A stretch of DNA of 64,000 bases from Zeus faber (lineage: Eukaryota; Chordata; Actinopteri; Zeiformes; Zeidae), in assembly GCA_960531495.1 (NCBI GenBank), contig OY482850.1:6725653-6789652 (forward strand), read 5' to 3'. The notes beneath the pieces are model-generated. The model made no database searches and had not been told where the DNA came from. It was given only the letters and a program-made list of their open reading frames with translations. The translations under genes were made by a program, and so were the position numbers. Positions within the stretch are counted from its first letter, which is position 1, and each line of letters opens with the position of its first letter. Below, one piece after another: positions 8,591 to 39,199 of this stretch.

Positions 8591-9176
8591 GTGAGTTTCT
8601 TTCAAGAAGAGTAAGACGCTTGCATATAACATTTTGATTTGAACTGTACGTTACACATCAGCTGCAAACACTTAAGACTGACAGTGTCAGTATCCACCAG
8701 TAAAATACTGATTGTACTGGGGCAGCTTTCAGCTTCCACCCGTAGAACTCGGCTGGTATCAGAACAAAACAGCCCCCCCCCACTCAACCCACTCACACAC
8801 ACCCATACACACCTGTCCAGAAGGGCTATATAAGCAGGACTTGTGGCTTCTCCTCACACTTGCACCACATTTGCATATGACAAGCAAATGTGGAGTAAAT
8901 TTAATTTCTGCAAGTAAAATTGCAAAGCACCTACACAAAGAAGTATGGAGATAATAGTGCAACAAAAGATGTAAAATGATTTGATAATTCAGGATTTTTG
9001 ACCAATTTTTCTTGATTATTCAAAAACATTTTTCTGCTTGTCTGTGTTTTAGAAGGGACAAAGGGGGACAATGCCTGAGTTCAGTTCAAGAAACAACTTT
9101 CAAATCACAGGTGAGTGTTTCGTCCACGTCAAGGCTTTAGAGATTCAAAATGGTCACGTGGCAGACAAGAGTGTGT

Positions 9177-18160: not shown

Positions 18161-19559
18161 GCTTAGGCGCTCACTTTGATTGGTAAATGCGGGCTGTACT
18201 CTAGTCAATAAGGATGAGACAGTTTTTTTATCAGGGGACGCTCAGCTTCAGATTGACACGGCAGATTAATTTCCAAATTCATGTGCGGTATCTCCACTTG
18301 ATTATGAAATATCCCTGACCCTAACCTACTTAGGTATATGTGGGCTGTATTAGGAAGCTTTACTGTTAAGTTCATGACTCTGTATAACACTCCTTCCACT
18401 TGTCCAATCTCATTAACTACAGCGCAGTGAGCTAGGGCTTCTGCAAGCAGCAGGAGAGTCAACTTCACACCCAGACATGATCTTTATAACTCAGAGTGCT
18501 CAGCATTTAACCATGCACTGTGATCACGGCAGGCAGGTCAGTAACGGCACACATACTCTCACTCCTGGTGCGACAATCTTAACACATAAAAGTAACAACA
18601 ATCTATCATAACACATGTCTCATGGCTAACTAACACTAACAACTATTAACATTACTGTAACTAAGACCACATAAAACAATCCCTTTCCCCGACAACCCCA
18701 AAACGCACAATAACCAAAGCATGGGTAAATCTCCGCCCCACCTCTACTCCCCAACACGCTACAATATCATCCCCGTTCAATTCTGAAACCGTCCTCCAGG
18801 TAAATCACAGCAAATACCAAATGATTAGGTTTTCTTAGAAAGTATATAGCTATGCAACTGATCTTGGGCTATTGTACAATGTTGCAACTTGAATTTATTG
18901 TTAATAGCAAAGGTATTTAAAAAATAGAAGCATTGTAAGCACTAAAAATGAATAAGAATCAATTAAATCTGACTGATCAACATTCATTGTAATTAATATT
19001 GCAATAATATTTTGCTTGTGCTTGGCTTTCAAAACGCTCATGTGAGTTGGAGCACTTGAATTGACCAGGCTGATTCATTTAGCTGACATGACAATGATTA
19101 TCCTGGCTTCTCATCTTGAATTAACATTTATTTATTGCTTTGATGGCGTTTATTCCCAAATGCCAGAAAGTCCTTCCTAGCACTGGTGTCCATGATCACA
19201 CTTCCCTCGGTCTGTAAAACAGTAAGGTACAAAGAGACAGAGATAGAGATGAAATGAGAAATATGCATTTATTTGGAGAACACTCATATATAAGGTTTTC
19301 ATGAGTTATTAACTGTTTAACTATAGCACTCATACAAACATAAGCAGGTCAATGTAAATTAGATAAATGTGTTGTACATGTTGAACACAGTACAACCCAG
19401 TACAACCACTCCTCTACTGTTGGACACATGGGATCTGCAAGGGCATCTCAAGGGCAATTCAAAGTGCTTTACATAAGACAATTATTATTTGATAAAGAGA
19501 TAGTTATTTGATAAAATAAATGTTATACCTGTCAGTCAGTCTTGGGTCATCAGTTTAGA
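18161..19559. other. No recognisable gene
   Basis: The minus frame 18468-18205 (87 codons) has no known motif. The block 19220-19330 resembles 20090-20200, showing that the duplications of the exon array reach this far. Confidence 0.4.
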
Positions 19560-19830
19560 ATGCAATTGTAGATGTGAGCTTGGCAACTTAACTATGGAAG
19601 ACAATTTTGTTGTTTTGCGTAATTCAGTAAACTGGACCATGTAATGGTTGAATAAAAGAGGCCCAAGGATTGAGCCTTGGGAAACTCCACGTGACGTTAA
19701 TTGGCTGGGTTATTGCCGATGGAGACAAACAGCTCCTGTCTTGTAAATAAGACGTGAACCGATTCAAGAGCATGCACAACCGACTCATACAATCTGTTTC
19801 GTGGAATTGCGTGTGGATTAAAATTTTACC
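19560..19830 (-). pseudogene. Non-LTR reverse transcriptase fragment
   Basis: On the minus strand a broken frame reads FVSIGNNPAN and SRGVSQGSILGPLLFNHYM, the RT block just before the YADD motif. It is a truncated LINE piece and its clade cannot be assigned. Confidence 0.6.
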
Positions 19831-20277
19831 AGTCAGTCTTTAGACAAAGGTCATTAAGACATCTGTTTTCTACTGTTGTTTTCTCCACAAGGGGACGCCC
19901 AATTCCACCAGTTTTCTGCTGCTGACTTCTACTGTTCCACTGAGAGCTGCCCAGTACGGCCAGTCCTCCAATTGATACGTACCGTGTTACCGTTACTCCA
20001 AATTGGAAATTTTGTCTCTATGTACCAGTATCTTATTCTAATCACCTGTGCTGGAAAACAACTAAAGACTTATATTTTCCACATTAGAGGAAAAGAGAGG
20101 CAGAGACAAAGGACAAATATAAAAATAGTCAGTGATTGTGATAATTGGAGGACACAATAAAGTTAGTCATGAGTAATTAACAGTTAAACTTATAGACACT
20201 TATGTACACAAACATGCCAAACACAAGACTGTGTACACTCTGGAGAGTATAACGCACATTTCAAAAAATGCACTTAC

Positions 20278-20362
20278 TTTCTTGTTATACCAACGAGTCC
20301 CTCCATAAATTTGGTTCTGGTTGTGTCAGCGTTGTGCTCAGTATCTGTTGGGTTGTCTCCCC
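20278..20362 (-). pseudogene. Degenerate class B-like exon
   Basis: It is preceded by ctgtattgttaaag, like the acceptors of the class B exons, and followed by gtaagt. The sequence aligns loosely with class B (GGDN start), but its length of 85 nt breaks the symmetric phase and the NQVNVG core is gone. It is probably decayed. Confidence 0.4.
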
Positions 20363-20528
20363 CTTTAACAATACAGGCAGAAATGAAATACAGTATGAAC
20401 ACAGTAATATTTACAACGAGAGATGAGAAACACATGTTGATGATGTCATTATGTCAACATCTTAGAATTGAATCATAAATAGTGTCCATTTTGAATTTCT
20501 AAGGCCTTGATGTGGATAAAGAACTCAC

Positions 20529-20612
20529 AGCTGATTTGAATGTTGCTTCCGGGACTAATGGATCTGCCGTTGATGATAATTCCACTGTCGATGATGGTGT
20601 CTCCCGTTGTTC
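20529..20612 (-). CDS. Array exon A1 (class A, 84 nt)
   Basis: Acceptor ttttagaag and donor gtgagt, phase 1 at both ends. It reads GTTGDTIIDSG, then a PGSNIQIS core. It is the most 3' intact class A exon. The neighbouring B1 is 234 bp upstream on the minus strand. Confidence 0.7.
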
Positions 20613-20845
20613 CTTCTAAAACACAGAGCAAGCCTAGGAATGAAGAGATGTTTTGATGGACAGCCTTCCGCTGAAATCTCCTTGTCCATTTAGCATGACA
20701 TGACAATGAGTGTCCAGTGTCATTTGAGTGCAAATTATGTCTTTGATTAATACTGGCACAATTTATATTTATAATAATTTAGATAGATTGACGGATGGTT
20801 TAGAAGTTGAACTGTTAACCAGCTTTCATCCCCTATGCAGTACAC

Positions 20846-20944
20846 CTGTTGTCACGTCAGCTTCTTCCCCGGCACAGCATTCACCCGTTCCTCTGTTGCT
20901 CGTGTTAATGTTGGTCCCAACTCTCACTTGGTTTCCTCTTCCTC
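20846..20944 (-). CDS. Array exon B1 (class B, 99 nt)
   Basis: Acceptor tttgaacag and a gtgtac donor, phase 1-1. It reads GRGNQVRVGTNINTSN, then GTGECCAGEE. It lies about 180 bp downstream of a TATA box on the same strand, so it could be an early exon of its own gene copy. Confidence 0.7.
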
Positions 20945-21127
20945 CTGTTCAAATACAGGCAGAAAGGAAATGCAGCGACAGCATAAGGAAGAAACACGTA
21001 AGTCATGTTCCCTCAAATACAGACTATAAACACAATGTACCAACACTTATTTTTAGGTTGTTGCCCTCTGCTGTGAACTGAGCTTGTTGGCTTCAGATGG
21101 AGATTTAATGGGAGACAGCAGTCTCTG

Positions 21128-21136
21128 CTTATATAG
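21128..21136 (-). promoter_or_regulatory. TATA box, array promoter 1
   Basis: On the minus strand it reads CTATATAAGCAGAGACTGC, followed by atctccatctgaagccaaca. The same arrangement occurs at 35.6 kb, so it is a duplicated core promoter plus leader. Transcription would run toward B1. Confidence 0.65.
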
Positions 21137-21295
21137 AAATGTGATGAAGAATAAAGTACATGTGCCTTTTCAAAATGACCCACTAGTCGTCCATCCACTA
21201 CAAAATACGATACATCATGCAGCCCTACTGAACATGTCAGATGTGAATCTCTCTCCCTAAGCCTTGATGTGGACAAAGTGTCACTGAAGACTCAC

Positions 21296-21379
21296 CTGTG
21301 ATTCGAATGTTGCTTCCTGAACTAATGACTCTACCGTTGAAGCTGATTCCACTGCCTATGATGGTGTCTCTGCCTGTTC
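21296..21379 (-). CDS. Array exon A2 (class A, 84 nt)
   Basis: Acceptor attttagcag, donor gtgagt, phase 1-1. It reads GTGRDTIIGSGISFNGR, then SSGSNIRIT. The core has Arg where other copies have Gln (NIRIT instead of NIQIT). Confidence 0.75.
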
Positions 21380-21628
21380 CTGCTAAAATACAGACATAGG
21401 CAAACTGGCAAAAAATTGATGTTTTTATGGACGGTCTGCTATCCAGTGAAATCCTTGCGTATTTATAGAATTGTACCAAATAAATTTGACCACCATTAAG
21501 AGTATGCGTGAAATGCGATGAGGCAAAATTTGCATGTGCCATTTCAAAATGTCTCACCAGTTGGGATATTTGATCTATATAACAGCCCTACCGAACGTGT
21601 CTGATGTAAATGTGGACAAAGAACCCAC

Positions 21629-21712
21629 TCGTGATTTGAATGTTGCTTCCTGGACCAACTCGGCTGTCGCTGAAGCTGATTCCACTGCCTATGATGGTGT
21701 CTCCGCCTGTTC
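21629..21712 (-). CDS. Array exon A3 (class A, 84 nt)
   Basis: Acceptor attttagcag, donor gtgggt, phase 1-1. It reads GTGGDTIIGSGISFSDSRV, then GPGSNIQIT. One codon (Ile before GPG) is missing relative to the 87-nt copies. Confidence 0.75.
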
Positions 21713-21799
21713 CTGCTAAAATACATACACGGGCAAACATAGGAACGGGGAGAAGTTTTGATTAACAGTCTGCTATCCAGGGAACGCCTTGTGTATTCA

Positions 21800-22928
21800 T
21801 ATAATTGGACCAAATTAATTTATCCACCATTAAGAGCATGCAGCATGAATTCAAGGCTTTCCTGTAAACTGTTGAAATGTCCATGTCCATAGAACTTAAA
21901 ATTTGGTTTTTAGTGTCAATTCTTTTTTTGTGTGTGTTTATACAAGGGGGGCGTAAATCTCCCCAATCTCAGCTGAAGGAGGTGTGCAGCATCGAGTTAT
22001 GGCATTATTGCTGGGGGATATAGGATTTTTGTTCATTATGAAAAAAATACATTAAGTATTTATTTAAATAAAAACATATCTTTTTCCACTTAAAATTGTC
22101 ATTATATGAAACAAAAAACCTAGTCTGTATTTGGCACTGGGCAGTTGATAGTCTTATTATAGTATTATTATAATATATTATAGTTTTGTGGTATTGTATT
22201 ATGATATTATATCATAGAATTGTACTGTATGTCTCAGTGTCTAAAGGGAACTGATCAAGATGAAAATAAAATATTTGAGATTAACAATATTTGTGACATT
22301 GTTTGTGTAATGGCAACTGTCCAGCCTGCCGAAGTGGTCTTATCATATGTGTCTGGGCGTGAACGGATCAACTGACTGGATGTTCTTCTTGTAACTGAGT
22401 CTGGGGAACAAAAATAGTCTAGTTTATTTTACTAATTAATTGATTTTATTATTAATACAATAACAAGCAACCGGGTGGTTTTACAACAATATAATAGATA
22501 TAGAAATCAAAATTTTTGGATAAATAATTTACACTTGATGTTGCCTATTCATAGATCGGAGCCTTCATTGCCCAGAGGAAGTTGTGGCTATTCAGAAGGT
22601 TCATGTTTATGTATAGAGCTGATTAGATCCACCCCCAGTAACTGAATTAAATTTAATTTCATGTCAAATTTCCCACATTTATAACAAGCCAAATTTGATG
22701 AGATTTGGTTGGGAATTAAGCGGGTTGCTGTCAATTATGTAGAGAAGTCTACAGCACTCAATACACATTGTATTTGTTTACTAGTGGATCTTGACCGCAT
22801 CAATATGGCAACCACACAGACGCATGTCAATTTGCAAATGCGGTATGTTTCCATATCTAGCTTGCACAGGCTGGCCTTTGTTTGGTTGAACAGAACAACT
22901 TCAAACAAGTAGTTTATTTATATAGATA
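21800..22928. other. No recognisable gene
   Basis: Very AT-rich intergenic or intronic sequence. The pieces around 21900-22030 resemble 27100-27300, so they belong to the duplicated array units. Confidence 0.45.
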
Positions 22929-23210
22929 AACAGGAACTCCTCACTTTACGTCCGAGTTCCGTTCCCAGGACCAGATTGTTAAGCCAATTGGTCGATGAGC
23001 GAGGACCCACGCCGCCTTATTTCACGGTAAGGGGGCGTGGCCATTGCGAACGCTAGTGTAGTAAATACTGACAGACTGCGGGAACGAGACTGAGGCTGAG
23101 AAAGGTGATGTGCGATGAGATGCTTGACGCTGATACGCCGCGGTGTTGTACGCGGCGCACAATACAGAATGTCGTTTAACAGGTAGGATGTTAAGTGAGG
23201 AGTACCTGTA
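22929..23210. mobile_element. MITE with inverted ends
   Basis: The left end acaggaactcctcacttta and the right end, complement of taagtgaggagtacctgt, form imperfect terminal inverted repeats of about 20 bp around a 280-bp GC-richer non-coding body. Confidence 0.7.
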
Positions 23211-23264
23211 TATTCATTTGATTCATGCTGTTTATGGGCATTGTATATGTGATGTATTATTTTT

Positions 23265-23515
23265 CTGGTGGTCTCCCTGGCCTCAGTTTGGTGTTGGGGG
23301 TAGGTGGGGTGGGGATGGTGTGGTGAGCAGCCCCATCCCCACACACACTCAGGATAGAGGCCTGTGTCATGACATGTTTTATCTGCTCCTGGGCTAATTC
23401 CAGCTAGCCCACTCTCTATAATAAACTGGTGTTTACAACCCCCCGTCTTCTAAGTTTCTGTGCCGGAGGACCCTAAAACGCCACTTGGGTGGCGTGTGGT
23501 GGCGAAACTGCCACA
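23265..23515 (+). mobile_element. LTR copy, same family as 57498-57804
   Basis: It shares gtgtggggatggtgtggt-like sequence, the polyA signal with aataaactggtgt, and the end ggcgaaactgccaca with the solo LTR at 57.5 kb. The 3' end at 23515 is clear; the 5' end is approximate. Confidence 0.65.
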
Positions 23516-23574
23516 TATAGTACCAGCAGCATTGTGTGTCATTGTTTTCTGTGTTTTAGAACCTATGTATATCT

Positions 23575-23960
23575 TATTTCCTCAAATAGTGACCGGGGCC
23601 TTGATTTACATCAACTGCAGAGGGTACTAAGCCTTTATTGGGAGCAGGCTTATATTAGAGGCAGGCTTTTATATCTAATTCCCTCTGTTTAATAAGTATA
23701 TTTGAGTAAGAATTTTAAGCCAAACTTCTGTCTGGGTGCCATATATGGTGAAAAAAGAGAACGCTTGTAACGACCCTAAATATCATACTTGAGGTGGTAG
23801 CTGACGGGAGAATTACAGTTCTCCGAGTTCACCTTGAATTAACCACTTCCTGCTTGGAGAGCCGTAGTGCTCAGAGCTCAGGTATTTGCCCCAAGATACG
23901 ATCTGCTAGGTCGCTGTGTCACTACCTCTGATTTTCCTGACGTTACTGAAGACCGGCAAG
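23575..23960. mobile_element. MITE copy 1 (incomplete)
   Basis: It begins tatttcctcaaatagtgacc and matches 25131-25500 closely, but lacks the right end found in the 25.1-25.6 kb copy. Confidence 0.6.
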
Positions 23961-23999
23961 TCTGACAAGTATTAAACAGGTTTCATATAATGTCCTTAC

Positions 24000-24101
24000 T
24001 TCCTGTATTCACGACAACTTCTTCCCGGGCACAGCAATCACCCGTTCCTCTGTTGCCCGTGTTAATGTTGGTCCCAACATTTACTTGGTTTCCTTTTCCA
24101 C
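24000..24101 (-). CDS. Array exon B2 (class B, 102 nt)
   Basis: Acceptor attttaacag, donor gtaagg, phase 1-1. It reads GKGNQVNVGTNINTGN, then GTGDCCAREE. This is the copy with the clearest VNVGTN core. Confidence 0.75.
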
Positions 24102-24473
24102 CTGTTAAAATACAGGCAGAAAAGGAAATGCAGCTACAGTATAAGGAAAAACACATAAGTCATGTTCCCATCTGATAATTGACACAGACACACAGAAGAA
24201 GTTGGGGGGGGGTTGCATTCCAAATGCCTTTGCATGACTTGGATACTGGCTTTAGATGGAGATTGATGACAAGCAACGCAACGTGTGATATTGTGATGCC
24301 GATGTGAAATGCAATGACGCAAAATTTGCATGTGCCATTTCAAAATGTCTCACCAGTTGTCATATTTCATCTATTTACATATTCATATCCATTTAATATA
24401 CAAATACAAAATACGATACATCATGCAGCCCTACTGAACATGTCAGATGTGACTCTAAAGCCTGTGAACTCAC

Positions 24474-24560
24474 TCGTGATTTGAATGTTGCTTCCTGAAC
24501 CAATGACTCGACTGCCGCTGAAGTTGATTCCACTGCCTGTGATGGTGTCTCCACCTGTTC
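24474..24560 (-). CDS. Array exon A4 (class A, 87 nt)
   Basis: Acceptor attttagcag, donor gtgagt, phase 1-1. It reads GTGGDTITGSGINFSGSRV, then GSGSNIQIT. Confidence 0.75.
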
Positions 24561-24972
24561 CTGCTAAAATAGGAGTTTTGTTTACTATGAAAATAATACT
24601 TCAAGTTCAAGACTTTTCTGTAAGCTGTTGAGATGTACTTGTCCATAATACTTGGAATGCTGTTTTGTGTGCTAATGCATATTTTCCTCAATATTTACAC
24701 GAGGAAGAAGGGATACCTCGATGTGCACTAGCTGAATTGAACCACGCCCAATATCAACGGAAGGAGGTCGGCAGCGTTTCATTGCAGTATTATGCAGGCG
24801 GTCTATAGGCTTTTTGTTAATTATGAAAACAATCAAATTTTTCCCCATCCGGTTGATGGTTCTGGTGAACATTAACTGAAGCTGCTGACCTGTATCTGCA
24901 TGAATGGATGAAGGTGTAAAGGTGTTCCTAATAAAGTGATGAGTGAGTGTATACTGTATGTGTATTTGTATG

Positions 24973-25103
<131 letters not shown>

Positions 25104-25130
25104 ATGTATGTGTACATATGTGTATATAAC

Positions 25131-25637
25131 GTATTTCCTCAAATAGTGACCGGAGACGTGATTTACCTCAACTGCAGAGGGTACCAGGCCTTTATCTGAA
25201 GCAGGTTTATATTAGATGCAGGCTTTTATATCTAATTCCCTCTGTTTAATAAGTATATTTGATCACATTTAGTATGAATTTTTAATCAAACTTCCGTCTG
25301 GGTGACATGCAAACACGTACACGGTGAAACAAGAAAGAGCTCCTGGCTCCCCTAAAAGTCGTAGTTGAGGTGATAGCCACCAGAGGGAATTACAGTTTTC
25401 AGAGTTCGCCTTGAACACATCACTTTATGGTTGGAACGCTGGAGAGTCAGAGCGCTCAGAGCGGGGTATTTGCCCCAAGATGCGACCTGCTATCTGCTAG
25501 GCAGCAGTAGGACATTGAGTGAATTAGATACATCTACAATAAAAACACGCTGTTTTTATTTGCTTGCAGGCTTTTATTTGTTCGTGTAGACCTCGCCCAG
25601 CATTCATTAGAGGCCCAGTTTATATTTGATGAAATAC
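25131..25637. mobile_element. MITE copy 2 with inverted ends
   Basis: The left end cgtatttcctcaaata and the right end tatttgatgaaatacg are inverted repeats of 16 bp with one mismatch. The body is non-coding. The incomplete copy at 23.6 kb indicates that this stretch was duplicated together with exons. Confidence 0.7.
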
Positions 25638-25909
25638 GGTATATGTATGTGTGTATATGTGTGTGTGTTTGTGAACTTTGAGTATTACGTATGTTTTGCA
25701 CCTTTGAGGCTTAAGGCCCCTTCCTGCGCACTAAAGCATATATTGTTCTCTCTTATAATGCTGCAGCCTGGTCATCATTTAAATTTGGCTGTATGTAGCA
25801 TTGTGTGCGCTTCTGTTACAAGTGATAAAGTCGCTGCGTCAATACTTTTGGATTTTCCTGATGTGAAGACTGTCCAGTCTAACAAGCAGGTTTCATAAAA
25901 TGTACTTAC

Positions 25910-26008
25910 ATGTAGTCACGGCAACTTCTTCCCCGGCACAGCATTCACCCGTTCCTCTGTTGCCTATGTTAATGTTTGTCCCAAGTCCTATTTGTTTTCC
26001 TCGTCCTC
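25910..26008 (-). CDS. Array exon B3 (class B, 99 nt)
   Basis: Acceptor attttaacag, donor gtaagt, phase 1-1. It reads GRGKQIGLGTNINIGN, then GTGECCAGEE. A solo LTR sits 34 bp upstream of its acceptor. Confidence 0.75.
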
Positions 26009-26041
26009 CTGTTAAAATACAGGCAGAAAGGAAATGCAGCT

Positions 26042-26378
26042 TGTGTCGGACCAAGGGGTGTGTTTAAGCTGCGGCTGCAGACAGCAGCGTGGCTTCCTTC
26101 CCGCAGCCACAGGGAGTTTTCTTCATGTTTGTCTGTCTTGCAGAGAGGGATCAGCACACAGGGCTCGTCAGCCGAGCAGGAGCCAGAGCAAAACATCCTT
26201 CCTCCTGGGCCCAGACTGATTGTTATTAGTGATTATTATTTATCCTTTTTGCCAGCGAGTCGTTCTGTTGTTGCCTAAATAAAAAAAACTCACGCTATGT
26301 TGGCGACCCAGTGCCAGAAAGACTCTCACTCCCTCTCAGACTCTCACTTCCTAAACCCGTACGGCAGAGACTTCCACA
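26042..26378 (-). mobile_element. Solo LTR with 5-bp target duplication
   Basis: 337 bp starting TGTGTCGG and ending TTCCACA (TG...CA), flanked on both sides by CAGCT (26037-26041 and 26379-26383). It interrupts intron sequence that is continuous in other array copies. An AATAAA-like run near 26277 is present on the plus strand, so the orientation is uncertain. Confidence 0.8.
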
Positions 26379-26481
26379 CAGCTATACGGAAGAAACATGT
26401 GAGTCATGTTCAATATGATAGTTGAATAAGAAATGGTTGAATTATGAATCTCTAAATCATTGATGTGGACCAAGTTCTCAC

Positions 26482-26568
26482 CGTTGATTTGAATGCTGTT
26501 TCCTGAACCAATGGAGCTACAGCTGATACTAATTCCACTATTTATGATTCTGTGTCTCCTTATTCATC
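26482..26568 (-). pseudogene. Degenerate class A exon
   Basis: It keeps a gtgagaac donor and an NSGISIS-like reading followed by SGNSIQIN, but a 2-bp insertion near the GDT block shifts the frame and the acceptor is weak. Partial copies of the same pseudo-exon lie near 32300-32370 and 33475-33540. Confidence 0.6.
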
Positions 26569-26895
26569 CTCAAATGCAGACAAACAGAAGAAGTTGTGGG
26601 GGGGCGGGGTGCATTCCAAATGCATTTGCATGGCTTGGATGCATGGCTTCAGATGGAGATTGACGGAAGACAGAAGAAGTTACGCAAACGTGTGATATTG
26701 TGATGCCGATATGAAATGCGATTAAGAAAAATTTGCATGTGTCATTTCTAAATGTCTCACCAGTCATAATGTCTCACCGGTGATATTTTATCTATTCACA
26801 TATTTATAAACATTTAATAATACAAAATACAATACATCATGCAGCCCTATGTTAGATGTGATTCTCTCAAGTCTTGATGTGGACAAAGAACTCAC

Positions 26896-26982
26896 CCGTG
26901 ATTTGAATGTTGCTTCCTGGACCAATGACTCGGCTGCCACTGAAGCTGATTCCACTGTCTTTGACGGTGTCTCCGCCTGTTC
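26896..26982 (-). CDS. Array exon A5 (class A, 87 nt)
   Basis: Acceptor tttttgcag, donor gtgagt, phase 1-1. It reads GTGGDTVKDSGISFSGSRV, then GPGSNIQIT. Its duplicate is A6 at 32.7 kb. Confidence 0.75.
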
Positions 26983-27470
26983 CTGCAAAAATACAGACAC
27001 AGGCATACATCGGGAAAAAAAGGGATATTTTGATGCAGAGTCTGCTACTCAGTGAAATCCTTGTGTATTCATAGATTTGGATCAGCAAATGTCCATCTCC
27101 ACAATACTTACAGTTTGGTTTTTAGTGTCAATTCTATTTTTGTCTGTATTTATGCAAATGGGGGGGGGGAGCGTACCTCGATACGCACTAGCAAAATAGC
27201 TCTTCACACTAGCCGACACCCAATGAACCAGCCCCAATCCCAGCTGAAGGAGAGTTGTGCAGCATTGAGTTGTGGCATTATTGCAGGGGGTTGTGAGAGA
27301 AAAATGCATATGATCAATTCCTTGAATGATGTTTTTTACATGTTTTATATCGGACGATAGCCTTTTGTATGTTATGTAGCTTTTAAAACACATTGCCTTG
27401 GGGTTTTCATGAGTCTCTCAAAGTTCATATGAAGAGACTGTTCTTTTCCAACAATGCCTACTGTAATATA

Positions 27471-30400
27471 AGTTCAAAGTTCAAAATGTTTTATTTGTCA
27501 AGTGTACAGTACAACACAAGGTCGTTCGGTATAATGAAGTTCTTAGGGCATGACAGGCAACAACTATGTAGTGGAATATAAGGAGGAAATACATTTTTTT
27601 AAATAAAACAAGAGTCGAATATAAAAAAAAGTAAGAGTCGATGTTACAAATACAGGCCAGAGGTCGCAGTGTATGTACATACAATTAAATAAGAAATTAT
27701 TCCTAAAACGGAAACTAAAAATTGGAACATTGTAGCAGTTCCAACAGAAATAGGTCAGTCATTACACAAGATATGGATATAAATATAAAGTGAAGGAGTG
27801 CCGGTGGATATGTTCATGTAGTTGTCGTGATGTACATTTAATTTACATAGGTGACTACAGATGTTGCAGGTTGAGAAGCCTGTTGGCCTGAGGGTAAAAA
27901 CTGTTTGTGAGTCTGGTAGTCCACGCCCAGATGCTCGGGTAATGTTTACCAGACGGCAGCAGCGTGAACATTCCGGAGCCTGGGTGGCTGTAGTCCTTTA
28001 TGATTTTCAGTGATTCCTAAGGCATCGTGGGCGGTAGATGCCTTGCACAGAGGGGAGCTGGCAACCAATGATGCGCTCCGCTGTCTTCATCACCCTCTGA
28101 AGCAGCCTGCGATCAGCAGCGGAGCAGCTGCTGTACCAGGCGGTGATGCAGCCAGTGAGAATGCTCTCAATGGTGCATCGGTAGAAGCTGGTGGGAGTCC
28201 TGACAGACATGTCAAACTTCTTGAGTATCCTCAGGAAGAATAGTGCTGTTTTTAATGCCGTGTCCAATTGCCTGGACCTGGAGAGGTCATCATTGATGAA
28301 CACACTGAGGAACTTGAAGCAGGAGACTCTCTCCACTTCAGCACCGTCGATCTGGATGGGGGCGTGCCCCCCCACTGTCGTTTCCTGTAGTCCACGATAA
28401 TCTCTTTAGTCTTGCAGATGTTGAGAGAGAGGTTGTTATCCTGGCACCATGTTGCCAAGACGCTGACCTCCTCTCTGTAGGGGGACTCATCGTTGTTGGA
28501 GATGAGACCCAGGATGGTGGTGTCGTCCGCAAACGTAAGGATGGTGTTGGTGCTGCGCATGGCCACACAGTCATGTGTGAACAGTTCAGGAGGGGACTGA
28601 GTACGCAGCCCTGCGGGGCTCCGGTGCTCAAGGTCAGTGCAGAGGAGGAGAGGTTTCCCATTCTCACCACCTGGGGTCTGCTCGTTAGGAAGTCCAGGAT
28701 TCAGTTACAGAGGGAAGTGTTAAGACCGAGGATCCTGAGCTTGGGAACAAGCTTAGCGGGCATAATTGTATTGAATACTGAGCTGTGATCTACAAACAGC
28801 ATCCTCACGTATGTGTTGCTCTTGTCCAGGTGGGAGAGGGTGGTGTGCACTGCCAGGGCGATGGCGTCGTCCATAGATCTGTTCGGACGATATGCAAATT
28901 GAAAGGGGTCCAGGGTGTCAGGAAGGGAGGAGCAGATGTGAGTTCTGACTAGCCGCTCGAAGCACTTCATGATGGTAGAGCTCAGTGCTACGGGGCGATA
29001 GTCTTTTAGGCAGGTGATGGGTTGTTTCTTTTGTAGTGGGACAATGGTTGTCTGTTTGAAGCAGGTGGGGACTGTAGACGGGATCAGGGACAGGTTGAAT
29101 ATGGAGGTGAATACCTCCGCCAGCTGGTCGTCGATACTCGCCTCAAAACGTGCATAGAAGGTGTTGAGCTTGTCGGGAAGAGAAGTGGCTGGTTGGGCAT
29201 CACTCCTGTTTCTCCCTTTGTAGTCTGTGATGGTGCGCAGTCCAAACCACATGCATCTGGGGTTGGAAACTGTGGTAGTCCAACTCCAGCTTGTCTCTGT
29301 AGGCTCTTTTGGCGTCTCTGATGGCTTTCCAAAGGTCGTATCTGGACTTCCTCAAGGCCTCCAGGTCCCCAGAGCTATAGGCGGAGGACCGTGCTCTGAG
29401 CTTAGCATGGACATCACCATTTACCCAGGGCTTCTGGTTGGGGAAAGTCCTGACCTTGACTCTTGGGACGACATCATCAATGCACTTGGAGATGAAGGCT
29501 GAGACAGAGTCAATGTATGCATCAATGTCCCTAACAGCTGCAACACAGACCATCTGCCAGTCCGTGGTTTCGAAAACAGTCCTGGAGAGTGGTAGTGGAT
29601 TCTCCACTACAGCGCTGGACTGTCCGACAAACCGGCTTTCCTTGCTTTAATCGTTGTCTGTAGCTTGGTAGGAGAAGAATGGGGGTGTGATCCGCCTTAC
29701 CAAAGGCAGGGCGGGGGAGGGGTTTATAGCTGTCCCGTAGTTGTGAATAACAATGGTCGACAGTCTGATCACCCCTGTTAGGAAAGTTGATATGCTGGTG
29801 ATATTTAGGCAAAACTTTCTTCATATTAGCCCTATTGAAGTTGCCACAAACAATAGAAGCTGCCTCAGGGTGAGCATTCTCCAGTCCACCCGTAAAGGTC
29901 CTCTAACGCGCACATGTTATCCGCCTGCGGGGGTATGTAGACTGCCGTGATAATAGCGGAGCTGAATTCCCACGGGAGGTAGAAGTGACAGACTTTTATA
30001 GTTAAGAGCTCCAGGTCCGGAGAGCAGTGTTTTGAAAGTACTGATAAATCCAAACCCCAGCGAGAGTTAACCATAATGCAGACCCCACCGCCTCTGCGTT
30101 TACCTGACTCTGTGGTTCTGTCATGCCGGTAGATGAAAAATCCAGCCGGAGTAACGGCAGAGTCAGGCACCGTAGTGTCTGGCCAGGTTTCTGTGAACGC
30201 CAACACACAGCAGTTTGCGATGTCCCGCTGGAAGTTAATCCGTGAGTGTAGTTCGTCCATTTTATTGTCCAGGGATTGAACATTTGCCAGTAAAATGCTC
30301 AGTAGCAGCGGATTGCAGTACCTCGTCCGAGATCTGCATAGAATTCCAGCACGTTTGCCTTACTCCGGTAAGTTGCGAAAAAGTCCATATTAAGTGTCGA

Positions 30401-30476
30401 ACAGACGTCCAGGAGTGCTTGTCGTTCATATTGTAAGAGCAACAGTGCACTGCGTGCAAAAATAAGAACAATACAG
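27471..30476 (-). mobile_element. LINE, Rex1/L2-like non-LTR retrotransposon, broken
   Basis: On the minus strand from about 30260 an endonuclease part (NCCVLAFTETW, GGGVCIMVNSRWG) is followed by YCSQLRDSYKPLPRPAFGKAD, then by RT. The RT includes [33 protein letters not shown] and [13 protein letters not shown] (the usual FVDYSSAFNT has lost its Tyr), then [12 protein letters not shown] and [12 protein letters not shown]. The thumb block SFYRCTIESILTGCITAWY comes last. Frameshifts and an internal deletion before [11 protein letters not shown] kill it. The 3' end at 27471 is a gaactttgaactt microsatellite tail, typical of these LINEs. Flanks match an uninterrupted array copy at 33.1-33.3 kb. 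Confidence 0.85.
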
Positions 30477-30800
30477 TCCTGTAAATGACTGTTTTAGTCA
30501 TTATCTTGTTTTTTTCTAGCTCGTTAAAAGGCCACTCAATGTATGCTTTCCTGGCACCGATAGTGTTAAATGTTTTTCTTTGTTAAAACTTGTTCTCAGC
30601 TGTTACTGAAGGCATCAGCGAATCACATGGCTAGTCTCAGAATGGGACACAACCTTTCATCGGTATAAAGCCCTCTTCAACAGAAGCAAGGGCAGACCGA
30701 TCAAGACGACTCCTTTGAAGCCGCTGTTAATCTTTTCCTTTATTCTGCAGAATAAATATCTTTAATATTCTCAGTTTGTTTTCCTGTAGCAGGCAGATTA
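30477..30800. other. Array-derived flank and LTR-like sequence
   Basis: 30477-30600 matches 33304-33455. After it, 30608-30790 has ggtataaagcc (TATA-like) and gcagaataaata (polyA-like), suggesting an LTR fragment, but no partner or target duplication was found. Confidence 0.35.
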
Positions 30801-30802
30801 AC

Positions 30803-31003
30803 ATTACATTGCATTTGGCAGACGCTTTTATCCAAAGCAACTTACAATTATTCAAACACCGACGGACACAGCCATCAGGAGCGATTAGGGGTTAAGTGTC
30901 TTGCTCAAGGACACCACAGCATGCTAGCAGGAGGAGCCTGGGATCCAACCAGCAACATTTAGATTACAAGACGACCAGCTCTACCTCCTGAGCTACCATC
31001 CCC
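30803..31003 (-). mobile_element. tRNA-derived SINE
   Basis: On the minus strand the head reads gatggtagctcaggaggtag (A box), then ggttggatccc (B box). The tail contains the conserved ttggcagacgcttttatcc core on the plus strand. Related copies lie at 58.5 and 60.3 kb. Confidence 0.8.
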
Positions 31004-31059
31004 ATTAACTTCACTGACCATGCAGGATACATTTTCCAACAGGGTCTAAAGTATAGGAG

Positions 31060-31880
31060 CTTTGTTCATTCTATAAGAAATACTTCAAGTTCAACACTTT
31101 TCTGTAAGCTGTCGATATGTACTTGTCCATAATACTTGGAGTGTTGTTTTTTGTGCTAATCCATTTTTTCCTCAATATTTACGCAAGGGAGATGGGATAC
31201 CCCGATGTGCACTAGCGGAAGTGAACAACGCCCAATTTAAAGGTAAGGAGGTCGGTAGCGTTTTGTTGCAGTATTATTGCAGGCGATTCCTAGGCTTTTT
31301 GTTAACTATGAAAACAATACATGTTAAATAGATAAATCACTCCAAACAATCATTATATGAAACAAAAATATATAGTTTGTGCTCGGCACCAGACAGTTGG
31401 AATGTTTTAGTGACTGTAACGTCAGTATCAAAATGCAAGTTCTTAATCAAGGTCAATTTAATGATAGCAACTCCAATGAGATTAAAACCGTTAAAGCTGG
31501 CCTTCAGAATATCTTTCATTGAGGATCATACACCAAACAATGAACCCCACTTGTTACACGTAATGTAAAGAGTCCACTGAACTCTAGAAGTTTAAATTAG
31601 TAACTACGTTGCATTGCTGGACACACCTAAATCATGATGTCAAAGCAGATCCGACATGAAGAAAAAAATCCTCTATAAAAAGTTATAGTAGCACAACCAA
31701 ATGAGCACTAAAAAAATGTCCTTCTTAAAATACTTACATATGAAATATTACTACGGCCTGTTTTTATTCAGCAAGCTTTCCTTTGTAAAATTACAATTGT
31801 ATGTGAATATTGTCTTTTGATTGCTTCTCTCTTTTATTTTGCGTTTCTATATTGCATTTTTTTGTTGTTGATTGAAACTT
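31060..31880. repeat. Segmental duplication matching 34040-34880
   Basis: Colinear blocks share acttttctgtaagctgt, caacgcccaattt, aacaatacatgttaaatag and the stretch caccaaacaatgaacccca. They lack coding exons and appear to be array intergenic or intron DNA. Confidence 0.8.
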
Positions 31881-31901
31881 TTTGCCAATTCTGACTCTGC
31901 A

Positions 31902-33140
31902 GACAGCAGCGTGGCTTCCTTCCCGCAGCCACAGGGAGTTTTCTTCATGTTTGTCTGTCTTGCAGAGAGGGATCAGCGCACAGGGCTCGTCAGCCGAGCA
32001 GGAGCCAGAGCAAAGCATCCGTCCTCCTGGGCCCAGACTGATTGTTATTAGTGATTATTATTTATCCTTTTTGCCAGCGAGTCGTTCTGTTGTTGCCTAA
32101 ATAAAAAAAACTCACACTATGTTGGCGACCCAGTGCCAGAAAGACTCTCACTCCCTCTCAGACTCTCACTTCCTAAACCCGTACGGCAGAGACTTCCACA
32201 CAGCTATACGGAAGAAACATGTGAGTCATGTTCAATATGATAGTTGAATAAGAAATGGTTGAATTATGAATCTCTAAATCCTTGATGTGGACCAAGTTCT
32301 CACCGTTGATTTGAATCCTGTTTCCTGAACCAATGGAGCTACAGCTGATACTACTACTTATTTGTCCTCAAATGCAGACAAACAGAAGACGTTGTGGATT
32401 CCAAATGCGTTTGCATGGCTTGGATGCATGGCTTCAGATGGAGATTGACGGAAGACAGAACAAGGTACGCAACATGTGATATTGTGATGCCGATATGAAA
32501 TGCGATTAAGCAAAATTTGCATGTGTCATTTCTAAATGTCTCACCAGTCATAATAACTCACCGGTGATATTTTATCTATTCACGTATTTATATCCATTTA
32601 ACAATACAAAATACAATACATCATGCAGCCCTATTAAACATGTTAGATGTGATTCTCTCAAGCCTTGTGATGTGGACAAAGAACTCACCTGTGATTTGAA
32701 TGTTGCTTCCTGGACCAATGACTTGGCCACCGTTGAAGCTGATTCCACTGTCTTTGACGGTGTCTCCGCCCGTTCCTGCAAAAATACAAAAATGGTTTTT
32801 CGTGTCCCTTCTTTTTATTGTGTGTATTTACGCAAATGGAGGGGGCATACCACGATATGCACTAGTGAAATAGCTCCTCACACTAGCCGACACCCAATGA
32901 ACCAGCCCTAATCCCAGCTGAAGGAGAGGTGTGCAGCATTGAGTTGTGGCATTATTGCAGGGGGTTGTGGGAGAAAAATGCATATGATCAATTCCTTGAA
33001 TGTTGTTTTTTTAAACATGTTTTATATCAGACAATTGCCTTTTGCATGTTACGTAGGTTTTAAAACACATTGCCTTGGGGTTTTAATGAGTCTCTCAGAG
33101 TTTATATGAAGTGTGTTCTTTTCCAACAATGCCTACTGTA
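31902..33140. repeat. Segmental duplication, right copy
   Basis: Duplicate of 26082-27470. Its left junction falls inside the LTR, where LTR sequence is fused to gactctgcagacagcagc without the LTR's 5' end. Confidence 0.8.
32689..32775 (-). CDS. Array exon A6 (class A, 87 nt)
   Basis: Acceptor tttttgcag, donor gtgagt, phase 1-1. It reads GTGGDTVKDSGISFNGGQV, then GPGSNIQIT. It differs from A5 at only a few codons (SGSR to NGGQ). Confidence 0.75.
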
Positions 33141-33778
33141 GTGTAAGGGTTTACCAGATCACATTCCATCTTTACTCCACCTGGTGTGGGGATAAGGAAA
33201 ACCCCCATGGGGCTCAACAGAGCATTCTGGTTTGTTTTATGGCATAGTAAGACTGTACCTGTGACCTGAGAGAAACACCCGGGGATATGATTGAGGGGGT
33301 ATAGTCCTGTAAATGACTCGCTAACCAATGGTTCACAACTGCTTTTGTCGTTATCTCTTTTTTTCTGGCTTGTAAAAAGGCCATTTGTGTAAACACTCAA
33401 TGTATGCTTTCCTGGCACCGATTGTGTTCAATGTTTTTCTTTGTTAATACATGTTCTCTTTGCATGTGTCATACAGCTGATACTAATTCCACTATTTATG
33501 ATTCTGTGTCTCTTTATTTGTCCTTAAATGCAGACAAACAGAAGAAGTTGGGGGGGGTGCATTCCAAATGCGTTTGCATGGCTTGGATGCATGGCTTCAG
33601 ATGGAGATTGACGGAAGACAGAAGAAGGTATGCAAACGTGTGATATTGTGATTGCGATGAGAAATGCTATTAAGCAAAATTAGCATGTGTCATTTCTAAT
33701 TGTCTCACCAGTCATAATGTCTCAGCGTTAGATGTTAGATGTGATTCTCTTAAGTCTTGATGTGGACAAAGAACTCAC

Positions 33779-33865
33779 TCGTGATTTGAATGTTGCTTCC
33801 GGGACCAATGACTCGGCCGCCGCTGAAGCTGATTCCACTGTCTATGATGGTGTCTCCGTCTGTTC
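33779..33865 (-). CDS. Array exon A7 (class A, 87 nt)
   Basis: Acceptor attttagcag, donor gtgagt, phase 1-1. It reads GTDGDTIIDSGISFSGGRV, then GPGSNIQIT. Confidence 0.75.
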
Positions 33866-34942
33866 CTGCTAAAATACAAACACAGGCAAACATCGGAAAA
33901 AAAAAAGGGATGTTTTGATGGAGCGTCTGCTACCCAGTGAAATCCTTGTGTATTCATAGATTTGGATCAGCAAATGTCCATCTCCATAATACTTTACATT
34001 TGGTTTTTAGTGTCAATTCTTTTTTTATTTTCATTTTCATTTTCATTTTTTATTTCTAAAAGAAATACTTCAAGTTCAACACTTTTCTGTAAGCTGTTGA
34101 GATGTACTTGTCCGTAATACTTGGAGTGTTGTTTTTCGTGCTAATAAATGTATTCTTCATATCTACGCAAAGGAGATGGGATACCCCGATATGCACTAGC
34201 GGAAATGAACAACGCCCAATTTCAACAGAAGGAGGTCGGCAGCGCTTTGTTGCAGTATTATTGCCGGCGATCTATAGGCTTTTTGTTAATTATGAAAACA
34301 ATACATGTTAAATAGATAAATCACTCAAAACAATCATTATATGAAACAAAAATATATAGTTTGTGCTCGGCACCAGATAGTTGGAATGTTTTAGTGACTG
34401 TAACGTCAGTATCAAAATGCAAGTTTTTAATCAAGGTCAATAAATGATAGCAGCTCCAATGAGATTAAAACCATTATAGTTGGCAAGAATATCTTTCATT
34501 GAGGATCATACACCAAACAATGAACCCCACTTGTTACACGTAATGTAAAGAGTCCACTGAACTCTAGAAGTTTAAATTAGTAACTACGTTGCATTGCTGG
34601 ACACACCTAAATCGTGATGTGAAAGCAGATCTGACATCAATGGAAAAATCCTCCATAAAATGTAATAGTAGCACAACCAAATGATCATTAAAAAATGTTC
34701 TTCTTAAAATACTTACATATGAAATATTACTACGGCCTGTTTTTATTCAGCAAGCTTTCCTTTGTAAAAATCACAATTATATGTGAATATTGTCTTTTGA
34801 TTGCTTTTCCCTTCATTTAGCGTTTCTATATTGCATTTTTTGTTGTTGATTGACACTTTTTGCCAATTTTGACTCTGCACATCTCAGTATTGTGTTATCT
34901 AACCTCCAGGGTGGAATTCATGTCTATATCCAGTCATTTATT

Positions 34943-35012
34943 ATCAATCAATTGTGCTGGAATATAGCTAAACTAGACACATTGTATCCAAAAATCGAAA
35001 CATGGCCTGTAT
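34943..35012 (-). CDS. Possible terminal exon of the 35-kb array gene
   Basis: After B4, an acceptor (ttatacag) opens a phase-1-compatible frame reading HVSIFGYNVSSLAIFQHN and then a stop. A similar but broken sequence lies at about 20030-20080. There is no independent support for this exon. Confidence 0.3.
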
Positions 35013-35056
35013 AACACCAATTTCATAAAATAAAAAACAAAAGAGCAAAAACGTAC

Positions 35057-35143
35057 TTCCGGTATTCCCTTCAACTTCTCCAGCGACACAGCAGATTCCC
35101 ATTTTACGGTTTTTACCAATATTAACTTGGTTTCCTCGTCCCT
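35057..35143 (-). CDS. Array exon B4 (class B, 87 nt), second coding exon of the 35-kb gene
   Basis: Acceptor tttaaacag, donor gtacgt, phase 1-1. It reads GRGNQVNIGKNRKMG, then ICCVAGEVEG. It is the most diverged class B exon and keeps both the V-N-I-G-x-N core and the Cys-Cys pair. Confidence 0.75.
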
Positions 35144-35282
35144 CTGTTTAAAGAAAGACAGAAAGTAAACATAGTGATTAAGAGAGAAATTCGTGGACTA
35201 TATATCATGTTCACATCTGAGAGTCAAATAAGAAATAATTGAACTTTGAATCTCTAAATCCTTATGTGGACAAAGAACTCAC

Positions 35283-35366
35283 CGACGACTTGAAAGTTAT
35301 TTCCTCCATCTGATGCAAAATTTTTCCGGTGTATGCCTCTGCGTGTGGTGGTGTTCCCCATTGTTT
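35283..35366 (-). CDS. Array exon A8, probable first coding exon
   Basis: Acceptor ttttgatag, donor gtgagt, 84 nt. It has an in-frame start codon in good context (acaATGg), giving MGNTTTRRGIHRKNF, then DGGNNFQVV. The NFQVV core stands where other class A exons have NIQIT. It lies about 230 bp downstream of a TATA box, with a LINE 3' tail inserted between. The product would start with no signal peptide, so it would be cytosolic if this start is right. The family is not recognised; see the findings for the RHIM-like idea. Confidence 0.7.
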
Positions 35367-35439
35367 CTATCAAAATACATAGGCATATACACTTAGAAAA
35401 AAAGAGACGCATCGTCATTACAGAGTCTGTGTATGTGAC

Positions 35440-35476
35440 AAATAAAAATCTTGAATCTTGAATCTTGAATCTTGAG
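35440..35476 (+). repeat. LINE 3' tail, (TTGAATC)n
   Basis: Four copies of cttgaat after aataaaaat. The same tail ends the LINE at 44.67 kb. This is an isolated, extremely truncated insertion upstream of A8. Confidence 0.7.
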
Positions 35477-35593
35477 TCACACAAACACTACACTACCAAT
35501 TCCTTGGCCTAAGCTGCGCTGTCTTGTACTGTGCTCCGCTGTTAAGGGAGCTTGTTGGCTTCAGATGGAGATATTAGGAAAGTGCAGTCTGTC

Positions 35594-35602
35594 CTTATAT
35601 AG
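35594..35602 (-). promoter_or_regulatory. TATA box, array promoter 2
   Basis: The minus strand reads GGCTATATAAGGACAGACTGC-like sequence, then atctccatctgaagccaaca. It matches promoter 1 at 21.13 kb in core and leader, so transcription is expected toward A8. Decayed leader copies (ccatctgaagcca) also occur near 26640, 32430 and 33600. Confidence 0.7.
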
Positions 35603-35767
35603 CCGTCCTTGACAGGTGTGTCCAAGTGAGTATGAGTGTGTTTTGTTACCCGAACCAGTCTAAGCCAGAGCCGAGGTGTGTGAGAAAGTTAAACCCTTCA
35701 CATTACTCAGCCTGTTTGTGATTTATAACGTGCTTGCATGGATGTGTTTGACTGTCTTTTAAATCAT

Positions 35768-35892
35768 TCAATCAGTCTGAATGTTGAATGAACAGATTCT
35801 GGCTGTACCATTACCACCAGCAGTAACGTATTTATAGCTATCTTGTGCATTCTGTATCGATATACTGTAGGTCACGCGGTTCCCTATAGGTC
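35768..35892 (-). CDS. Phase-1 terminal exon of the next upstream array gene
   Basis: A tgtcgtag acceptor opens a phase-1 frame of 40 residues ending in TGA: GPIGNRVTYSISIQNAQ, then TAGGNGTARICSFNIQTD. Phase and Gly/Asn-rich composition match the array, which suggests the 3' end of another gene copy lying beyond 36 kb. Confidence 0.5.
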
Positions 35893-35999: not shown

Positions 36000-36443
36000 T
36001 GTGGCAGATTGGGAACTAAAATAAGAAAGTACTAAAAGAGTCTAACTGTACAAGTTCTTACCCTTGGAATTAGGTAAAGTTATCAGTTTTCTTGGCTGAC
36101 TGAAGTGCATACCCATGTACTTGCGAACCAAATCTGGTCCACGGTTTTTCAGCCAGTTGTTACAACTAGTTGGATGACTCAGCTCCAGAGAAACACAGAA
36201 GCCGCTAAAATGAAAACACTGAAGTCAGTGGCAGTAAAAGGCCCAGGAGATGGGCTTTTTCAAATAAATAGAAATACTTTCCCATGTCCCTTTACTCCTA
36301 CTCCTTTACTCATGCACACGGCTTATCAGCACTACAGTGTGTTGTGTTGTAGGGTAGCGTTGCAGTGTGTGTGAAATTTACCTTTATTGTTGACCTGTAG
36401 TAACATTACTCAAATAGACTTTGCTTTTTAAAGTTTTGCCTGT
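36000..36443. other. No recognisable feature
   Basis: Short frames only. The frame 36105-36374 carries no known motif. Confidence 0.35.
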
Positions 36444-36751
36444 TGACCTGAGCCATCCACAGATCTGTCCAGTATTTAATTAGCTCCTTGCTCTCTTCAA
36501 ATATACTAGTTAATTTGTATATGCTGTGCTGTGTACTATATAACACACCACAGCATCTTGTTAGGAGATCCTAACATGAGCGGAGTGTTTTTCACAAAGG
36601 CGAAGAAGAATATTATTTTGATTATAGCCAGACACCCTCACACACCCAGAAATCCATTTCTGTGGCTATTGCCAAGGTCATGCCTCAACACGCTCTGTTC
36701 TCTTCCACTGAATCTAAAGCTGCCCATTGAGCTGACACTGACTGCGGTGTA

Positions 36752-36861
<110 letters not shown>

Positions 36862-37489
36862 CCAACATTGTGATATTTGGCAGTTATATGATATAAAATA
36901 AACTCTTGGATTACTGATAATCCACCCGCAGACTTCCTGTTTGGAAGTCTGTGGGTGACCTAATCATTACCAGTCTGTCATGCAAAGAGCAGAGTTGTAG
37001 ATGTAGATGCAGACTCGAGGTGCGATTACATTGTGAAGGAAACCTTTAAATTCAACGACATACTGCAAGACAGAGTGTAGCGCAATCGCTACACAAGGTT
37101 CTCTCCAAAGACGTGCGACACGGGGTTTAGCCGGGTTGAAGCGCGGGCACGGCGATTCCACACTGTTTATAAAACAAGCTCCAGTGAGGATCTAGGACCT
37201 TTATGGAGGGCTTCCACCGGGACTCCGTCATATCCATCACATAGATGAAAAATTGTGATCGTGGCACTGCCCATTGTGGTCGCCTGCGTGGGTGCTCCGT
37301 GTCGACTACGCACATTTTAGTATTTTCTTTTCAGTTTTTTATTACAATGTCCGCCTAAAACTCATCAGCACTGATCTCCTACGGTCGCCATGCACTCGTG
37401 GGTATAAAAAATTCCCTGAAAGAACATCTTTAGTACTTTTTATCCGCGATTCCAGAGTGGCTGCTGGAGATTTTATGTGCCAACATTCT

Positions 37490-37519
37490 CAACAACAACA
37501 GCAACAACAACAACAACAA
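37490..37519 (+). repeat. (CAA/CAG)n tract
   Basis: About ten CAA/CAG triplets in the LINE 5' leader, repeated at 39872-39901. The poly-Gln frame across it is not supported as a protein. Confidence 0.85.
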
Positions 37520-37617
37520 TGAAGCAGCTGTTTCACGGGTGGGCCCACGGAGGAAGCACCGTGGTAAACGAGGTGGCATTCGGGTCAGAATGAGGACGCA
37601 ACCTTACCATCCTTCTT

Positions 37618-37651
37618 GACATTGGCAAGAAGCATTCTTCTTGCCAATGTC
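37618..37651 (+). repeat. 15-bp perfect hairpin in the LINE 5' coding region
   Basis: gacattggcaagaag, a 4-base catt loop, then the exact reverse complement. It is repeated at 40000-40033. A second 10-bp stem (aaggttcgcc, 8-base loop) lies at 37976-38003. Confidence 0.85.

Positions 37652-39110: not shown

Positions 39111-39199
<89 letters not shown>

Follow-up and report, generated by a model that had tools for sequence, protein, structure and literature searches.

Organization of the repeat-exon array

The 64-kb window analysed here (the whole 64,000-nucleotide stretch of Zeus faber DNA, C6:6725653-6789652, in a genome of 803 Mb and 153 contigs) carries an array of short repeated exons on its minus strand. 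A preliminary description of this DNA had reported eight class A and four class B exons, and all 12 were found as open stretches with an AG acceptor, a GT donor and phase 1 at both ends. The A exons (A1-A8) are 84 or 87 nt long, and B1, B2, B3 and B4 are 99, 102, 99 and 87 nt, respectively. For A8 the 5' phase 1 is nominal only, as this exon has its own ATG inside. The class A motif is SNIQIT, with the variants SNIRIT in A2, SNIQIS in A1 and NFQVV in A8. The class B motifs described before are NQVNVGTNIN in B2, KQIGLGTNIN in B3 and NQVNIGKNRK in B4; B1 reads NQVRVGTNIN, which had gone unquoted. A Cys-Cys pair is present in all four B exons.

Nucleotide profiles of the A and B classes (nhmmer) were built from the twelve exons themselves. 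They returned the window exons with E values of 5.8e-45 to 1.2e-27 (A) and 1.6e-47 to 1.5e-32 (B), a recovery that is partly circular because the same exons built the profiles. The reversed window gave zero matches at E<=10. Four additional degenerate A copies, absent from the preliminary description, were also detected, three on the minus strand and a shortened one on the plus strand. The array had been placed at 20529..35366, but the feature really covers 19,149-35,623, because a promoter and a terminal exon belong to the array gene. Its parts are listed below.

35515..35623, minus strand: TATA promoter and non-coding exon 1 region, GGCTATATAAGG at 35604; profile E 1.7e-26 (this copy helped to build the profile)
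35283..35366, minus strand: exon A8, the first coding exon; ATG in AAACAATGGGG (MGNTTTRRGIHRKNFASDGGNNFQVV); aligns with MGDNITGSGINF... of the small genes described below
35057..35143, minus strand: exon B4
33779..33865, minus strand: exon A7
33472..33538, minus strand: degenerate A copy, nhmmer E 0.0058
32689..32775, minus strand: exon A6
32282..32354, minus strand: degenerate A copy, nhmmer E 1.1e-10
26896..26982, minus strand: exon A5
26461..26583, minus strand: degenerate A copy, nhmmer E 2e-19
25910..26008, minus strand: exon B3, last base T before the junction
24474..24560, minus strand: exon A4
24000..24101, minus strand: exon B2
21629..21712, minus strand: exon A3, donor GTGGGT
21296..21379, minus strand: exon A2
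21049..21136, minus strand: internal promoter/exon-1 remnant, TATA at 21137; profile E 2.1e-16 (this copy stood outside the profile), promoter search E 2.1e-16
20846..20944, minus strand: exon B1, weak donor GTGTAC
20529..20612, minus strand: exon A1
20278..20362, minus strand: B0, a degenerate B-like exon with a phase-2 donor; weak partial nhmmer match, E 0.0011
19149..19211, minus strand: terminal exon; ancestral phase-1 frame (Y/N)RGKCDHGHQC followed by a stop, TAG ending at 19177, AATAAA at 19154-19149
8805..9110, plus strand: opposite-strand second copy; TATA at 8824, exon-1 region, shortened first coding exon 9056-9110 (MPEFSSRNNFQITG from the ATG)

A family of small four-exon genes on the same contig

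Joined A/B peptides matched exons outside the window at C6:5.32-5.38 Mb, weakly (E 0.145 to 2.85). The nucleotide profiles firmed up this cluster with six A matches (E 5.8e-27 to 3e-25) and six B matches (2.3e-18 to 2.6e-17), and a 67-amino-acid family protein used as query raised it to eight tandem copies at C6:5.30-5.38 Mb. The small gene consists of a TATA promoter, a non-coding exon 1, exon 2 (class A, with the ATG start), a 107-base intron, exon 3 (class B), and exon 4 with the stop and then a poly(A) signal. All eight cluster copies are open, each encoding 67 amino acids from four exons. The copy at C6:9.956 Mb is also open (read by eye, its length of 67 amino acids taken from the query). 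Further family copies lie at C6 9.97, 10.00 and 10.01 Mb, mostly known from matches only. Two copies look broken: exon 3 is nearly gone at C6:4.74 Mb, and there is no ATG at the usual place at 10.010 Mb.

The small 67-residue protein is rich in Gly, Asn, Ser and Thr, and no signal peptide is evident in it by eye. The small relatives start with MGD, whereas A8 starts with MGNTTT; an MGD start is disfavoured by the N-myristoylation site rule. The cluster stretch itself (C6:5310001-5410000) is made of tandem units of about 25-27 kb with two gene copies each, and by eye some of the units contain retrovirus-like frames.

Protein queries with A and B match C6 only, save one 27%-identical match with stops on C4. 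A short family pattern gave 19 hits, four of them off C6, a number equal to the total from the reversed control. The genome-wide DNA search passes over very common words, so the restriction to C6 is not absolute. A transposon origin was rejected because the protein and DNA searches confine the family to C6, with the stop-bearing C4 match and the four off-C6 pattern hits as exceptions. An extension of the coding region beyond the A donor was rejected as well; many copies share a similar run of ~45 bases at the start of the intron, but its reading frame is disrupted by indels.

The array as a probable enlarged member of the family

We propose, with a probability of about 0.57, that the array is an enlarged member of the small-gene family found on this one contig, in which duplicated exons 2 and 3 may give repeat products of variable length. 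Homology upholds the idea, put forward in the preliminary description, of repeat exons that join in frame and can grow in number: they are copies of exons 2 and 3 from a small gene with intact relatives. The RHIM link put forward there is not upheld.

The array gene is built like its relatives at both ends. It opens with an A exon carrying an ATG, in good context in A8, and then a B exon in phase 1. When the promoter and exon 1 of a small gene were used as query, 14 genome places were found at E<=0.01, all on C6. Three of them lie in the window, at 35,538-35,621 before A8 (E 2.4e-12), 21,055-21,136 before B1 (2.1e-16) and 8,807-8,866 on the plus strand (2.5e-15), so that the promoter is shared between the window and the small genes. 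The match before A8, made with the promoter from C6:5.38 Mb, covers C6:6761190-6761273 and is independent support for the window promoter. The window terminal region (from 19,211, after B0) has 10 other genome matches at E<=1, and 10 of 10 are at family loci, namely the eight cluster copies plus the 4.74-Mb and 10.010-Mb copies, with no match at the 9.956-Mb copy. Nine of these matches extend from the last codons into the 3' part, and one takes in the acceptor. At the sensitivity of this search, a second terminal exon was not found in the window. The plus-strand copy (genome places C6:6734459-6734518 and 6734744-6734764) gave an A-profile match at 9039-9133 (E 9.7e-12), and no B match to the window profiles was found downstream of it.

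Between the two ends, traces of the small-gene order are kept. The inner A exons have GGC, GGT, GAC or ACG in place of the ATG of the first exons, reading ACA-GGC-GGA-GAC or similar where first exons read ACA-ATG-GGA-GAC. An 18-base exon-1 motif (<=1 mismatch) stands ahead of the first unit (35573) and of five inner ones (33609, 32446, 26661, 24264 and 21105). The full promoter/exon-1 profile reaches one of the five inner sites (21105) in addition to the first; because it reaches only the first and the last, the other four inner traces are short. The motif copies at 33609, 32446 and 26661 sit in segments duplicated among themselves, and in the self-comparison the A5, A6 and A7 units appear as unit-sized duplications with 89-93% identity.

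The simplest history consistent with these traces is that the exon 1-A-B segment was duplicated several times in tandem. The inner copies would then have lost their ATG, and their promoter and exon 1 would have decayed, while the A and B exons remained open and in phase 1-1, enclosed by a first and a last exon that both survived. Gene growth by tandem duplication of symmetric exons is known to occur. Genes that grew in this way share with the array tandem phase 1-1 exons, which can be gained or lost without a frameshift. They differ in that the units here are the first and second coding exons of a 67-amino-acid gene, with the inner ATG lost and exon-1 traces in between. Both the gene family and the change of a first coding exon into an inner repeat unit may be new. 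Six family motif strings were not found in the literature searched, though the family may still have been described elsewhere.

Joining rules and predicted products

The claim that any number of exons can be joined or skipped in frame holds for 85 of the 90 forward junctions tested. A stop is created at the other five, in each of which B3 is the donor: B3 ends in T, and therefore a TGA arises when it is joined to A4, A3, A2, B1 or A1. The claim also fails for B0, which leaves in phase 2; therefore the terminal exon is reached out of its ancestral frame, and skipping B0 restores the frame.

Predicted splicing of A8-B4-terminal gives 66 amino acids on the family plan. With all A and B exons except B3 and B0 the product has 333 amino acids, and with B3 joined to B2 (A4 and B0 skipped) it has 337. 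Using all exons yields 175 amino acids only, because B3-A4 makes a stop.

Constraint on the exons and the possibility of a dead locus

Several observations weigh against an enlarged, working family member. They include the stops at the junctions of B3 with five downstream exons, the loss of phase at B0 (85 nt), the weak donors of B1 and A3, the decay of four A copies, and sequence of a long interspersed nuclear element (LINE) that parts A6 from A5. The pooled ratio of nonsynonymous to synonymous change per site (pN/pS) is 0.68 for A1-A7 (P 0.11) and 1.28 for B1-B3 (P 0.52), like a random placement of the same changes. The cluster copies, in the compared part of the coding region, differ mainly by amino-acid changes (5:0, 6:1, 3:1). 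Where flanks are plainly homologous they match or exceed the exons in identity, and any beta structure and function are read from the residue pattern alone.

Mean identity is 0.86 among A exons versus 0.60 and 0.71 in their flanks, and 0.86 among B exons versus 0.62 and 0.63 (A8 and B4 excluded). Many flanks are non-homologous because the duplications end at different points. Homologous flanks were found downstream for A5-A6, A2-A4, A2-A5, A2-A6 and B2-B3, and upstream for A5-A7. For A5-A6 the exon identity is 0.92 and the downstream identity 0.97; for A2-A5 they are 0.87 and 0.92, for A5-A7 0.92 and 0.89 (upstream), and for B2-B3 0.83 and 0.84 (downstream). Homologous flanks are thus about as conserved as the exons, and exon identity is therefore no evidence of constraint.

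These data bring in the strongest alternative, a pseudogene in decay. On this view the locus belongs to the small family but is dead, and its exon copies look intact only through recent duplication or homogenization. A ratio of nonsynonymous to synonymous rates (dN/dS, omega) near 1 across copies had been set beforehand as speaking against the array, and the values went half of that way. In a family codon model omega was 0.72 for A (12 sequences, 26 codons), with a log likelihood (lnL) of -506.62 versus -507.36 at omega 1 (2dlnL 1.5). For B it was 0.56 (8 sequences, 33 codons; lnL -499.91 versus -501.98, 2dlnL 4.1). Kappa was fixed at its estimate and gene conversion was left out of the model. 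Omega is thus near neutral for A, as it is for the window copies alone, which fits a dead locus, whereas the B value does not. The absence of stops in the exons is expected fairly often without selection, as the chance of zero stops under random placement of the same changes is 0.42 for A and 0.54 for B. The conserved homologous flanks, the B3 stops, the phase loss of B0, the four decayed A copies and the broken look of the 4.74-Mb and 10.010-Mb copies all agree with decay. In contrast, splice sites and frame are kept in 12 of 12 main exons, and the promoter and the terminal exon are kept as well. Main-exon indels are in multiples of three in 4 of 4 cases (our own count, with B0 and the decayed copies left out), unlike those in intron segments that we picked (6 of 36). 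A fair reading is that the A and B exons are under weak constraint and that a partly or wholly dead locus is a serious rival. We consider this rival rather unlikely and prefer the enlarged family member.

The LINE between A6 and A5 lies at 27500-30860 on the minus strand, with an RVT_1 frame at 28704-29351 and an UnaL2 3' element at 30805-30858.

Possible function of the array gene

If the enlarged family member is active, transcription would start near 35,570 and translation in A8, and splicing would take in a variable set of A and B exons. The products would range from 66 to about 333-337 amino acids, and B3 joined to any downstream A exon or B1 would end translation. Judging by the lack of a signal peptide evident by eye, the product would be cytosolic. 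Alternating hydrophobic and polar residues with Gly turns suggest stacked beta strands (solenoid or cross-beta), and growth of the array would lengthen the beta stack or add binding sites.

Because the family is weakly constrained, tandem and multicopy, host defence or reproduction may be its field of action, and defence is weakly preferred. In two near-identical aligned cluster promoters, an interferon regulatory factor (IRF)-like site in the same orientation precedes the TATA by 88-97 bases. The A8 and plus-strand promoters have a site at the same position with one mismatch to the interferon-stimulated response element (ISRE). In the promoter alignment, no such site was seen in the 9.956-Mb promoter or in the internal window promoter. 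The stretches concerned are the following.

35515-35780, minus strand: IRF/ISRE-like site in the A8 promoter stretch (promoter alignment)
8640-8930, plus strand: IRF/ISRE-like site in the plus-strand promoter stretch (promoter alignment)
L032 3380-3640, a stretch of the C6 cluster: IRF/ISRE-like sites (promoter alignment)

ISRE matches with two mismatches also occur elsewhere in the same promoter stretches, and the chance level was not computed, so these sites may give weak support for a defence role.

A more specific form of this proposal, which we regard as improbable, is a lineage-restricted effector family of fish, made only of beta-stacking exon units. One locus would act as a length dial, splicing its 11 internal phase-1 exons alternatively and using B3 as a stop switch. 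The products would be self-assembling rods of 66 to ~337 amino acids, forming a metazoan functional-amyloid or beta-solenoid defence unrelated to RHIM.

Comparison with RHIM, NLR-C repeats and other known proteins

The preliminary description had likened the exons to the RHIM core and to HET-s-like amyloid motifs, and the repeats might then seed a death kinase or a pore-forming partner. The exons do carry Gly/Asn-rich phi-Q-phi and phi-x-phi-G-x-N patterns, and repeat arrays would fit templated stacking. RHIM and fungal PP motifs resemble the A and B exons in being short Gly/Asn/Gln-rich stretches with alternating hydrophobic residues, and their amyloid core is G-phi-Q-phi-G (PMC7885112). This core is absent from the family alignment, where A reads N-phi-Q/R-phi-T/S/V and B reads phi-x-phi-G-x-N or close to it. 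Pfam-A scans were run at E<=10, with filtering that discards most matches above E ~0.1, and the family peptides gave no RHIM match. The RHIM model PF12721, with 150 of 476 candidates scored, gave 15 genome matches at E<=10, and family loci were not among them. C6 holds three of the 15, and ~188 kb separate the nearest of these from the 10.010-Mb copy; the best among the candidates scored is on C12 and reads NASGIQIGNNNSM. In profile-profile comparison with three RHIMs the score was 8.8, and the median of 200 column-shuffled controls was also 8.8, with 104 of 200 equal or better (no positive control), so the likeness is at chance. No kinase, NACHT or pore domain was found in ten selected window frames. 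The Pfam scans reported no HET-s-like model, HET-s being covered only as far as Pfam holds such models. Assignment to the RHIM family was therefore rejected on the Pfam scans, the genome scan and the shuffled-control comparison, and we consider RHIM or HET-s-like signalling very unlikely.

The exons could also be the N-terminal repeat exons of NLR-C genes. In zebrafish each of these repeats is ~30 amino acids long and has an exon to itself, and the repeats are shuffled as exons (Howe et al. 2016, PMC4852459). NLR-C (NLR-B30.2) repeats and the array are alike in ~30-residue repeats on their own exons, in variable number and in a multicopy family, and both occur in the same kind of host; the analogy in design is close. 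However, none of the FISNA matches listed, at least 57 in the genome, is on C6, and the A/B protein queries match C6 only apart from the stop-bearing C4 match. The two NLR loci examined (2 of 57) have no A/B match. The array carries the small family's own terminal region and not FISNA-NACHT (terminal-region search and FISNA scan of C6). Further, the small relatives are complete genes with their own stop, and here the repeats with a first and a last exon make the whole protein. With FISNA absent from C6 and A/B absent from two NLR loci, NLR-C identity was rejected for this genome and has hardly any probability left.

Other databases gave matches that we judge to be chance. The best Pfam matches of the family peptides are all under the curated cut-offs (VWC2L_C E 0.0043, Herpes_pp38 0.022, DUF1102 0.023), two family proteins have no NCBIfam match, and searches of PDB sequences gave weak matches only (CsrA 0.079, avidin 0.014). 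Viral contigs gave 76 pattern matches, none confirmed as relatives. The joined A repeats have a weak Hexapep match (E 0.73, 10.1 bits versus a cut-off of 27). Together with the hydrophobic rhythm and the Gly/Asn turns, it recalls beta-roll and beta-solenoid repeats such as YadA heads or curli; the A/B proteins differ in that none of their Pfam matches reaches a cut-off and none of their PDB sequence matches is significant.

Together with its small relatives in the same genome, the array shows how a 67-amino-acid gene can become an expandable repeat-protein gene: inner copies lose the start codon, and the exons that are duplicated are already symmetric. Should the array be transcribed, it would provide a length-tunable fish protein family in which repeat assembly and a role in defence could be tested.

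Other features of the window

On the plus strand, an open 313-amino-acid frame at 4850-5788 contains a cold-shock domain (Pfam CSD) and is probably a retrocopy, which we take to resemble a Y-box protein. At ~36060-36215 on the minus strand there is an exon-like open stretch with acceptor and donor, encoding the peptide GFCVSLELSHPTSCNNWLKNRGPDLVRKYMGMHFSQPRKLITLPNSKG and having no Pfam match. An open 312-amino-acid frame at 43080-44015 (plus strand) encodes a Tc1/Sleeping-Beauty-type transposase. A tandem duplication of ~2.4 kb at 36444-41185, with copies 98.4% identical, lies beside a reverse-transcriptase-matching frame at 40786-42096.

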